Positions 59,340-62,591 of a stretch of 64,000 bases of DNA are shown piece by piece. A program made the position numbers and the translations under genes. The DNA is from Thermosipho japonicus (GTDB lineage Bacteria; Thermotogota; Thermotogae; Thermotogales; Fervidobacteriaceae): NCBI RefSeq assembly GCF_014201655.1, contig NZ_JACHEX010000001.1, forward strand, positions 310,001-374,000, in the 5' to 3' direction. Each line of letters opens with the position of its first letter. Positions within the stretch are counted from its first letter, which is position 1. The notes under the pieces were generated by a model, which was not told where the DNA came from, ran no database searches, and saw only the letters and a program-made list of their open reading frames with translations.

Positions 59340-59406
59340 CAACTCCTAAAAATTAATTCGGCTTACAAACTAATTATACAATAAATATAAAAATTATCAA
59401 TAAAAA

Positions 59407-59435
59407 AGTCGCCATGGAAAAAATCCATAGCGACT
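59407..59435 (-). terminator. Terminator after the beta-helix gene
   Basis: AGTCGCCATGG (59407-59417) pairs with CCATAGCGACT (59425-59435) with one mismatch, and a T-run follows on the minus strand. Confidence 0.75.
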
Positions 59436-59459
59436 CTTTAAAAATTCTTATTTAATTTA

Positions 59460-60362
59460 TTATTTCCAAAAATATTTTCCAAAATTTTCATTTAAAATTT
59501 CTGGAGACTGTAAAATATTTGAAAAACCTATAATTTTTCCAGAAAAACGTTTCAAATTTGGGCAAGAAGAACAATCATCTTTTTTTATTACAAAATTATA
59601 GGAATTATCTTTAAATGTATTTCCTACTAACTCTACTTCAGGAGAATTTGCAACTTTAAATGCCTCAACATTTAATTCAAATCTGTTGTTTATTAATTTT
59701 TGCTGCCCACTTAATATAACTGCTACGTTTTCATTTTCTAAAAAGTCTGAATTGTATATATATGACATTCTGTTATTCAAAATTAATCCATTTTTCATTC
59801 CTTTCATCTCAATATCATTTGCTACAAACATTGAATCCCCAGAAAGCATTATTCCAACACTGTTAAAACTTAAATTTACATTCTTACCTGAACTACTTTT
59901 ATAATTTACATCTTTAACACTCAAATTTGAAACTTCTAAAAATGATTCTTTTTCTTCATCGGCTACACATACTACTCCATACGCATTATCAAGATTCATA
60001 TTTACATTGCTCAATGAAATCTTAGAATTTAAAAGTCCAATTCCAATTGAGTTTACTGATCCAATTTCCAAATTTTTTATTACAACATTTGAATTTTCAA
60101 TATAAATTGTTGGACTTGAGGCAAAAACGTTTTCCGAATCCTTTCCAACATAGTTTATATAAACACCTTCTTCTCCTAATAAAGTCAACTTTTTAGATAC
60201 TATCGACAAATTTTCTTTGTAAGTACCAGCTTTCAGATAAATTATATCACCATCTTTTGCCTTATCAATAGCTTGTTGAATATTTTCCTCAACTATTATA
60301 GTTTCTGAAATAAGAATAATACTAAATGCAAGTAAGAATATAATAACTAAACTTTTTTTCAC
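59460..60362 (-). CDS. Secreted parallel beta-helix (NosD-like) protein
   Basis: 300 residues with a signal peptide (MKKSLVIIFLLAFSIILIS). The N-terminus has the pectate-lyase-like IQQAIDKAKDGDIIYLKAGTYKENL and the rest is short repeating strands (VVIKNLEIGSVNSIGIGLLNS, GLILNNRMSYIYNSDF, KLINNRFELN, ELVGNTFKDN), a right-handed beta-helix. No polysaccharide-lyase catalytic residues are recognisable. A CSSC pair near the C-terminus may form a disulfide. The start is GTG after GGGGGGATCTTT. It follows a cysteine-rich secreted protein gene by 15 bases. Confidence 0.8.
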   Translation of the reverse strand: MKKSLVIIFLLAFSIILISETIIVEENIQQAIDKAKDGDIIYLKAGTYKENLSIVSKKLTLLGEEGVYINYVGKDSENVFASSPTIYIENSNVVIKNLEIGSVNSIGIGLLNSKISLSNVNMNLDNAYGVVCVADEEKESFLEVSNLSVKDVNYKSSSGKNVNLSFNSVGIMLSGDSMFVANDIEMKGMKNGLILNNRMSYIYNSDFLENENVAVILSGQQKLINNRFELNVEAFKVANSPEVELVGNTFKDNSYNFVIKKDDCSSCPNLKRFSGKIIGFSNILQSPEILNENFGKYFWK

Positions 60363-60377
60363 AAAGATCCCCCCTTT

Positions 60378-60731
60378 TTAGTATCCCCAATTACACGGAT
60401 AAACTCTTATTACGTCCCAATCAAGACATTTCTTGCTTTCAGGTTTCCAACAAGCTCCATAACAACCTACAGAGCAAGCAAGCACAGCAATTTTATTAGG
60501 AAGTACTTGACAAGCAGTTTGACAAACATTTAAACAAGTATTATCTAAATATCCTGGTTTTTCTTCCCATTTTGTACATATTGCATATGTAACTGGTTCA
60601 GTTAAACTTTCATCACATTCTCTATCAAGCTTTGGAAACGACTTAGATACTATCATTTCAAAATCATAATATTGAGAAAAGATTGTCATAGATAACAGTA
60701 AAAAAAATAAAATTCCCCAAAATTTCTTCAT
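60378..60731 (-). CDS. Secreted cysteine-rich protein with paired CxxxCxxxC motifs
   Basis: 117 residues with signal peptide MKKFWGILFFLLLSMTIFS. The mature part (about 98 residues) has ten cysteines. The centre is TCLNVCQTACQ then LACSVGCYGACW, two CxxxCxxxC runs separated by 10 residues, which suggests two helices stapled by disulfides. ATG follows GGAGGGTGAGATT. It forms a two-gene unit with the beta-helix protein. I do not recognise the family; the helical-hairpin pattern recalls cysteine-stapled peptides and some bacteriocins, but that is only an analogy. Confidence 0.7.
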   Translation of the reverse strand: MKKFWGILFFLLLSMTIFSQYYDFEMIVSKSFPKLDRECDESLTEPVTYAICTKWEEKPGYLDNTCLNVCQTACQVLPNKIAVLACSVGCYGACWKPESKKCLDWDVIRVYPCNWGY

Positions 60732-61255
60732 AATCTCACCCTCCTCTTGTAATAATAGCTTTTAAAATTTTCATATAATTTTACAACCTTCAATTAAATG
60801 AATACAAGTTTAATATATATTATTTTTATCTTAAATCCAAACTTTGATTTTGCTAATATTTTCCAATTATCTTAAAAAAAAAAAAAATAACAACTGTTTT
60901 CTATACCGCTCATAATATTTCAATATTATTAACAAATAACTAATTTTAGTTGTTTATCGACATATTAAATAGATTATTGAATATATAAAATTCATTATAA
61001 ATAAACAATATAATTATCTTTAAAAACAAACAAAAGAACAATATTTTATATTTAATTAATTTATTGTTAATATTATTAATCTTTCTATCAAGTTTTACTA
61101 AAGCAATATAATAAAATATTTTATAGTTAAATTTTTTATTAATTTAACCAATAAAAACTTAATCAAATTACTGCGTCGACTTCAAGAAACGAAACTCAAT
61201 AAAAATTAATGAAAAAAACACTCCCAAAGTGGTACAATAAAACCAACATGAGGAT
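60732..61255. other. Very AT-rich non-coding region
   Basis: Upstream of the cysteine-rich gene, extremely AT-rich with a poly-A run near 60875-60888. No gene, repeat family or RNA structure seen. It may hold promoter DNA for the leftward pair. Confidence 0.5.
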
Positions 61256-61600
61256 GTTTTCTTTGGTTAAGGAACTACAAAAGCAATGTATCCTTTGGAT
61301 ATAAAATAAGAAGTCATTAAGATTTACACAGATGAAAAACTTCTTAAGAAGACTATTGCTTCTCTCTTAGGGGGCCCTGAAAGTAGATAGAGTACGATTG
61401 TGGATAAATAATTAACTAACATATGGCATCACTGAACTTACAAAAAAGAGATTAGAGAACTATATTTTAGATACAAAGAAATATATGGATACAGGAGACT
61501 AACAGCGATATTAAAAAGAAAAGATAAACCACAAGAAAATATATAGATTAATGAAAGAGATATACAGCTCCCCTGAAGGATTGGACAGAGAAAAAAGAGA
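61256..61600 (+). mobile_element. Decayed IS3-type insertion sequence, copy 1
   Basis: Fragments of transposase in shifting frames. YPLDIK-stop-EVIKIYTDEKLLKKTIASLL recalls an OrfA start, and IREL/YFRYKEIYGYRRLTAILKRKDK is the IS3 OrfB HTH_21 region. Several stops and frame breaks; not functional. Copy 2 starts right after it in the same direction. Confidence 0.6.
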
Positions 61601-61633
61601 GAGTATAATTTTTCATGAGGGGGAGTGAAAGGT

Positions 61634-62385
61634 ATGAGGAGAAAGTTTTCTGCTGAAGAAAATTGTAGATGTTCTTGAAGGTTTAAGAGGGCAAAAAGCT
61701 ATAGCTGAAATTTGTAGAGAACATGGTATTTCTCAATGGCAGTATTACAAGTGGAGAGATAAGTATTGGTGCAAAGTCTGCACTTGAAAATTCTTCCAAT
61801 TCTTCTCAAGTAGCACAATATCAAAGAAAGATACAAGAGCTTGAACAAATTATTGGTAAACAAGCTATTGTTATTCAGTCTAAAAAAATACTCATTCACC
61901 CTGGAGGAAAACAGTAAGTTTATTAATTGAAAAAGGATTCAGTATATCTGAAGCTATTATGTATTTGAAAATAAGTAGAAGTACGTATTATTACAAAACG
62001 AAAAAATACATGAGAAAGAAAAATGATGAAAGTGTTTGATCATACAAAAGTTAAAGCAGGAACATCCATATTGGGGATATAGACGTATTTGTGCTATGCT
62101 TAGAAAACAGGGAAAGAAAATCAATCACAAAAGGGTCTACAGAATAATGAAAGAAAATAGATTGCTTCTAAAGAAGCACATAAAGAAAGCAAAAAGAAGT
62201 TTTCAAAGAAAGATAGTTCCAACCAGGCCAAGGCAGGTACTGGGAATAGACATGACGAAAGTAATGACGAAGAACGTAAGAATGATACGAGGAATTTTAC
62301 AATAGTAGATATCCAGACAGTGCATTGAAATACAGAAGTCCGCGGGAGGTATACGAAGAATACTCAAACTACACAAAAGTTTCTT
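61634..62385 (+). mobile_element. Decayed IS3-family insertion sequence, copy 2
   Basis: OrfA begins MRRKFSAEE, then after a frame break reads IVDVLEGLRGQKAIAEICRE and HGISQWQYYKWRDK (HTH_Tnp_1), followed by a coiled coil (SSQVAQYQRKIQELEQIIGK). OrfB begins near 62036 with HPYWGYRRICAMLRKQGKKI and reaches QVLGIDMTKV, the first catalytic Asp. Most of the integrase core is deleted. The end is recognisable as RYPDSALKYRSPREVYEEY. Internal deletion and frameshifts make it inactive. Confidence 0.75.
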
Positions 62386-62486
62386 GATTTCTGCCCAATT
62401 TTTTGTGGTGCATTACAATAGCGAGATAATAGAATATATACTAAGTGAAAGTAACAATATGGAGTTAGTGACAAACACAATAAAAA

Positions 62487-62513
62487 ATGGCTTCGATGGA
62501 GTACCGAAGTCAT
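62487..62513 (-). terminator. Terminator after the PAP2 gene
   Basis: ATGGCTTCG (62487-62495) pairs with CGAAGTCAT (62505-62513) with one G-T pair; the minus strand continues TTTTTTA. Confidence 0.6.
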
Positions 62514-62591
62514 GCTGTTTAAAAAAGTAAATTATTAACTTTTTTATTTGTACCATTTACAGAGTAAGTCTACACTATAGGACGATTTATT

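Follow-up and report, generated by a model that had tools for sequence, protein, structure and literature searches.

The window, a 64,000-nucleotide stretch of DNA from Thermosipho japonicus, encodes an exported ten-cysteine protein which is a new family on a known kind of scaffold: a helical hairpin, predicted to be stapled by nested disulfides between its helices (three bonds, 66-94, 70-90 and 74-86), within a beta-alpha-alpha-beta core. Its gene forms a pair with that of a secreted beta-helix protein, and the reading adopted here, to which slightly less than an even chance is given, is that the two proteins act jointly, the small one as an accessory disulfide-stapled module, at the surface of the cell or outside it. 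From the comparisons and models presented below we infer bonds in the cell, a contact between the two proteins and a binding target for them.

A previous sequence-only reading had described a signal peptide, ten cysteines, a mature chain of about 98 residues and two CxxxCxxxC runs, and an open reading frame (ORF) with all of these is present (Table 1), starting with ATG at 60731. The N-terminus consists of a Lys-Lys n-region followed by a hydrophobic core, with likely cleavage after Ser19 (a manual estimate), giving a mature chain of 98 residues; in the AlphaFold2 model one N-terminal helix is followed by a low-confidence linker at residues 25-36. Cysteines occupy positions 39, 52, 66, 70, 74, 86, 90, 94, 102 and 113, and when the mature chain is shuffled with its composition preserved, two C-x3-C-x3-C runs arise in 0.27% of trials. 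A survey of cysteine content covered a 404 kb sample of the same genome, comprising 412 ORFs, 60 of them secretory-like by a simple rule. The ten-cysteine ORF has the highest cysteine density of all, and the runner-up among the secretory-like ORFs has 3 cysteines in its mature chain, which marks the protein as truly exceptional for its genome; the rarity of cysteine-rich secreted proteins, previously asserted for anaerobic thermophiles, thus holds within this sample. The genome also has a small group of neighbouring genes (L090:529-2643) for secreted proteins of 2 or 3 cysteines each, in which the protein sequences of ORFs 529-990 and 2182-2643 start identically.

Table 1. Features of the ten-cysteine gene, its partner and the surrounding insertion, with the evidence for each.
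Feature	Coordinates	Strand	Evidence
Gene of ten-cysteine secreted protein, 117 aa	60378..60731	-	ORF, ribosome-binding site, homologues, dN/dS
Strong Shine-Dalgarno sequence of ten-cysteine gene, GAGGAGGGTG	60736..60745	-	sequence
Signal peptide, residues 1-19	60675..60731	-	sequence; N-terminal helix in AlphaFold2 model
Conserved N-terminal motif RECDESLTEP, residues 37-46	60594..60623	-	invariant or nearly invariant columns in two alignments
Predicted strand 1, residues 47-58, with Cys52	60558..60593	-	AlphaFold2 model
Predicted stapled alpha-hairpin, residues 64-94, C66-x3-C70-x3-C74 and C86-x3-C90-x3-C94	60450..60542	-	AlphaFold2 model, nigellin-1.1 matches, paired cysteine changes
Predicted strand 2, residues 99-110, with Cys102, then conserved YPC (Cys113)	60402..60437	-	AlphaFold2 model, conserved columns
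Partner gene, secreted right-handed beta-helix protein, 300 aa, GTG start, C-terminal C-x2-C	59460..60362	-	AlphaFold2 model, fold matches, adjacency
Intrinsic terminator closing the two-gene unit	59403..59439	-	16-bp hairpin and T run, -23.7 kcal/mol, z -7.5
3.2-kb segment inserted between PAP2 and MFS genes	59343..62591	.	comparison with sister genomes
Degraded IS3-type transposase, orfA/orfB remnants	61600..62400	+	tblastn to IS3-type ORFs beside a Kosmotogales-like copy

The AlphaFold2 model, obtained from an input of five sequences, has a beta-alpha-alpha-beta topology, in which helices 64-74 and 80-93 lie between strands 47-58 and 99-110; pLDDT is about 90-95 in the hairpin and the overall pTM is 0.41. 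A profile search of PDB sequences returned the plant alpha-hairpinin nigellin-1.1 as top match (E 0.0015), and the same peptide came first in a Foldseek search with the model (TM 0.72 on the target, rmsd 1.0 over 31 residues), with BWI-2c also among the matches. Cysteine spacing accounts for most of the profile match, and the best Foldseek E-value, 0.49, is not significant alone; homology is proven by neither match, and convergence with the plant alpha-hairpinins is more likely. A viral fold library gave no meaningful match.

The 6C class of alpha-hairpinins is defined by the motif C-X3-C-X3-C-X4-20-C-X3-C-X3-C (PMC11591084), which residues 66-94 contain with a loop of 11 and which is kept in most homologues. 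Nigellin-1.1 (PDB 2nb2) has the identical six-cysteine spacing, and its antiparallel helix-loop-helix overlays the two helices predicted by the model, while the bonds of classical alpha-hairpinins are nested (Cys1-Cys4 and Cys2-Cys3; PMC7191063). Unlike these plant products, which are short free peptides with unstructured tails derived from a plant precursor, the bacterial hairpin is part of an ordered domain that also has two strands and four additional cysteines, and the protein has a conserved N-terminal motif, is not cationic and is linked to a beta-helix gene. How a hairpin of helices familiar from the defence peptides of plants arose in bacteria is one of two questions which the protein makes testable. 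Plant thionins, in which disulfides brace the helices of a beta1-alpha1-alpha2-beta2 fold (PMC5507927), have the same order of secondary-structure elements as the model. Their cysteine pattern, however, differs from that of the ten-cysteine protein, which has a net charge of -2, and no thionin was matched in Pfam, sequence or PDB fold searches. Thionins are cationic.

The pairing of the cysteines can be followed through the homologues. In copies which appear to be Kosmotogales-like (G069 and G070) one cysteine has been gained at the turn end of both helices, equivalent to an extra rung, and in an apparently Marinitoga-like copy (G100), itself a broken gene, the middle cysteines of both helices, 70 and 90, have been lost together. 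Cysteine is found at both positions 50 and 107 in 5 rows of the alignment and at neither in the remaining 7 that are readable; cysteines at 57 and 100 have been gained together in L021 only. Both pairs sum to 157, in the register of the ends of the predicted strands. Since gains follow few lineages, these represent few independent events, and the homologue in G043 has an unpaired extra cysteine next to Cys70. In the hairpin at least, such paired changes are more readily explained by disulfides than by a metal site, and they lend support to the predicted nested inter-helix disulfides. A fully symmetric thionin-like pairing including 52-102 is doubtful, because in the 50/107 and 57/100 register residues 52 and 102 would face opposite sides of the sheet. 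The earlier proposal of disulfide-stapled helices is therefore well supported by the fold model, the two nigellin-1.1 matches and the paired gain and loss of cysteines, the bonds themselves being predicted; it is plausible that they also confer heat stability, as had been suggested. The paired gain and loss of rungs constitutes a natural experiment in disulfide evolution, and the family is a possible heat-stable scaffold.

Homologues were sought in 61 relatives and then in 103 Thermotogota genomes, 11 of which carry the family, at 13 loci in six family-level groups. In a public collection of genome contigs a profile scan found four loci of the family in metagenome-assembled genomes (MAGs), and a single-sequence pattern scan found no relative; the named relatives in that collection belong to Thermosipho, Thermotogaceae and other Thermotogae MAGs. 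Neither Pfam, NCBIfam, PHROGs nor PADLOC gave a match above threshold, and the viral contigs, phages and plasmids searched held no relative. The protein had been assigned to no known family, an assignment which stands, as no household family was matched. One further match, in G002 (E 0.009), was rejected because it lies inside a cysteine-free ORF of 551 aa. The ten cysteines, an N-terminal R-x-C-x-E-S-x3-P and a C-terminal YPC are kept in all or nearly all members in the alignments. Between intact copies dN/dS is 0.11-0.28, indicating purifying selection; the value for a stop-bearing copy in G007 was discarded as probably misaligned.

A gap of 15 nt separates the ten-cysteine and beta-helix genes, which share a strand, and each gene is preceded by a ribosome-binding site of its own. 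An intrinsic terminator, missed by a generic terminator scan, is found only after the beta-helix gene and not between the two. The beta-helix gene comes next on the same strand in 12 of the 13 loci, the exception being a broken copy in a MAG (G051), and no third neighbour is constant, the other neighbours varying by locus. Co-transcription, claimed from the sequence at the outset, is supported by the short gap, the common strand, the position of the terminator and this recurrent pairing. Moreover, the pairwise distances of the two proteins are correlated (r = 0.93 over 66 pairs).

The beta-helix model (pLDDT 86, pTM 0.84) matches pectin methylesterases, PL6 lyases and RbmB among PDB folds. Weak Pfam NosD matches occur in 6 of 12 partner homologues (best 1.9e-6), together with weak Beta_helix matches. 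The fold is common to NosD-like (CASH) right-handed beta-helix proteins, but the window protein falls below the curated cut-offs and has a C-terminal C-x2-C block of its own. A conserved catalytic residue set was not found in the partner family and few polar columns are conserved, which makes catalysis less likely than binding. Other Thermotogota have stand-alone relatives of the beta-helix, more distant but with the same C-terminal cysteine block, and the beta-helix is thus not always in need of the small protein.

In the proposed mechanism, the two proteins would be made and inherited as a unit. The two-stranded sheet would frame the stapled helices and carry, or be flanked by, the four further conserved cysteines, and the small protein would be a heat-stable cap or binding module that works together with the beta-helix in an extracytoplasmic position, the pair forming an accessory surface or extracellular complex in contact with glycans or a surface. 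Against this mechanism speak the stand-alone beta-helix relatives and the partner genes that stay intact beside broken copies of the small gene. The sequence-only reading had considered an adhesin tip, a structural toga component or an antimicrobial peptide. The strict beta-helix partner makes an adhesin or surface component the more likely prediction, whereas a core component of the toga is unlikely, since the gene is frequently disrupted and occurs in 11 of the 103 genomes.

The history of the locus is one of mobility and decay. A gap of about 90-100 bp separates the PAP2 gene from the MFS gene in two sister genomes (G002 and G003); in T. japonicus the segment inserted between these two genes holds the gene pair and a decayed IS3-type transposase. 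IS3-type remnants are also found close to the gene copies of G001, G012, G043 and of the Kosmotogales-like genomes, and G003 carries the pair at a site other than PAP2/MFS. Two near-identical copies of the pair occur in G069 (L044 and L045), and both have transposase genes, or remnants of them, no more than a few kb away. The small gene is broken in 4 of the 13 loci, by a one-base insertion in G003, a stop codon (TGG to TGA) in G007 copy 1, and frameshifts in G051 and G100. The frameshift in G051, which is a MAG, could stem from misassembly; the other three genomes (G003, G007 and G100) each consist of a single contig, and in all three the beta-helix gene beside the broken copy is intact. Compared with G012, the G003 small gene has accumulated 1 synonymous and 11 nonsynonymous changes, and its partner is still constrained. 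Phase variation was rejected as an account of the broken copies, which result from differing single events with no common repeat tract.

A small gene which breaks beside an intact, selected partner recalls a toxin lost with its immunity kept, and the best rival explanation is a secreted bacteriocin-like toxin directed at related strains and outlived by its partner, the beta-helix being an immunity factor or carrier. The product is small, stapled and exported, its gene is patchy and mobile, and antimicrobials are known among plant alpha-hairpinins (PMC7191063). Nevertheless, a toxin is unlikely: no exporter or maturation gene lies nearby, immunity would be an unusual task for a secreted beta-helix, the mature core shows good conservation from family to family and no diversification, and the net charge of the folded part, -2 here, ranges from +2 to -10 in intact homologues, unlike that of cationic antimicrobials. 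The antimicrobial peptide of the sequence-only reading is likewise weakened, since neither a cationic chain nor a conserved hairpin loop is present, the conserved residues being located outside that loop.

The accessory-module reading raises the question of how an obligate anaerobe would oxidise ten exported cysteines. VKOR and DsbB were above cut-off in none of the 103 Thermotogota genomes, and DsbA was found in 1 of 61 relatives, which does not carry the ten-cysteine gene; control genomes gave matches. The sole DsbA-family match, in G009 (L101 and L102), was possibly acquired. No DsbA, DsbB or VKOR was found in the T. japonicus genome, which sets the protein apart from Dsb-dependent secreted proteins. 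Disulfides are therefore not guaranteed and, if they form, need another route, perhaps polysulfide or sulfur chemistry outside the cytoplasm. How oxidation proceeds without the three enzymes is the other question that the protein makes testable, and a stapled hairpin formed without known enzymes would imply an unrecognised extracytoplasmic disulfide route in an anaerobic thermophilic phylum. The broadest version of the proposal is rated as rather doubtful: a ladder-stapled alpha-hairpin convergent with plant alpha-hairpinins, its rungs paired in evolution, together with such a route and a new two-component beta-helix surface module.

The same lack of DsbA, DsbB and VKOR matches would suit a protein whose reduced cysteines hold copper, zinc or an iron-sulfur cluster, next to a NosD-like beta-helix partner. 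Copper-storage proteins also have C-x3-C runs in helices, the partner homologues do give weak NosD matches, and the four conserved cysteines around the sheet (39, 52, 102 and 113) are assigned to no bond. Metal binding is nonetheless improbable, as cysteines are gained and lost in register pairs, both profile and fold match a disulfide peptide, the alignment has no conserved His or Met ligands, and the loci read contain no metal-handling gene nearby.

The IS3-type debris in the 3.2-kb insertion, the remnants near other copies and the four broken loci would also be expected of an insertion-sequence passenger with no lasting benefit to the host, an explanation with a small chance of being right, given that the dN/dS values of intact pairs and the class-wide conservation indicate long-term selection. 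A protease inhibitor, or another alpha-hairpinin-like binder of an outside enzyme acting independently of the beta-helix, is very improbable: the hairpin type is common to the plant trypsin inhibitors BWI-2c and VhTI (PMC7191063), the former among the fold matches, but the inter-helix loop, where these plant peptides carry their inhibitory residue, shows no conservation, and the linkage to the beta-helix gene is strict.

A thioredoxin-CcdA (DsbD-like) fusion was rejected as a redox partner of the ten-cysteine protein, with no match in the T. japonicus genome or in Thermosipho-type relatives. In several other Thermotogota the gene of this fusion adjoins a beta-helix relative (L060:911-2053, L062:275-1426, L065:2398-3552 and L068:2405-3577), a possible thiol-redox link.
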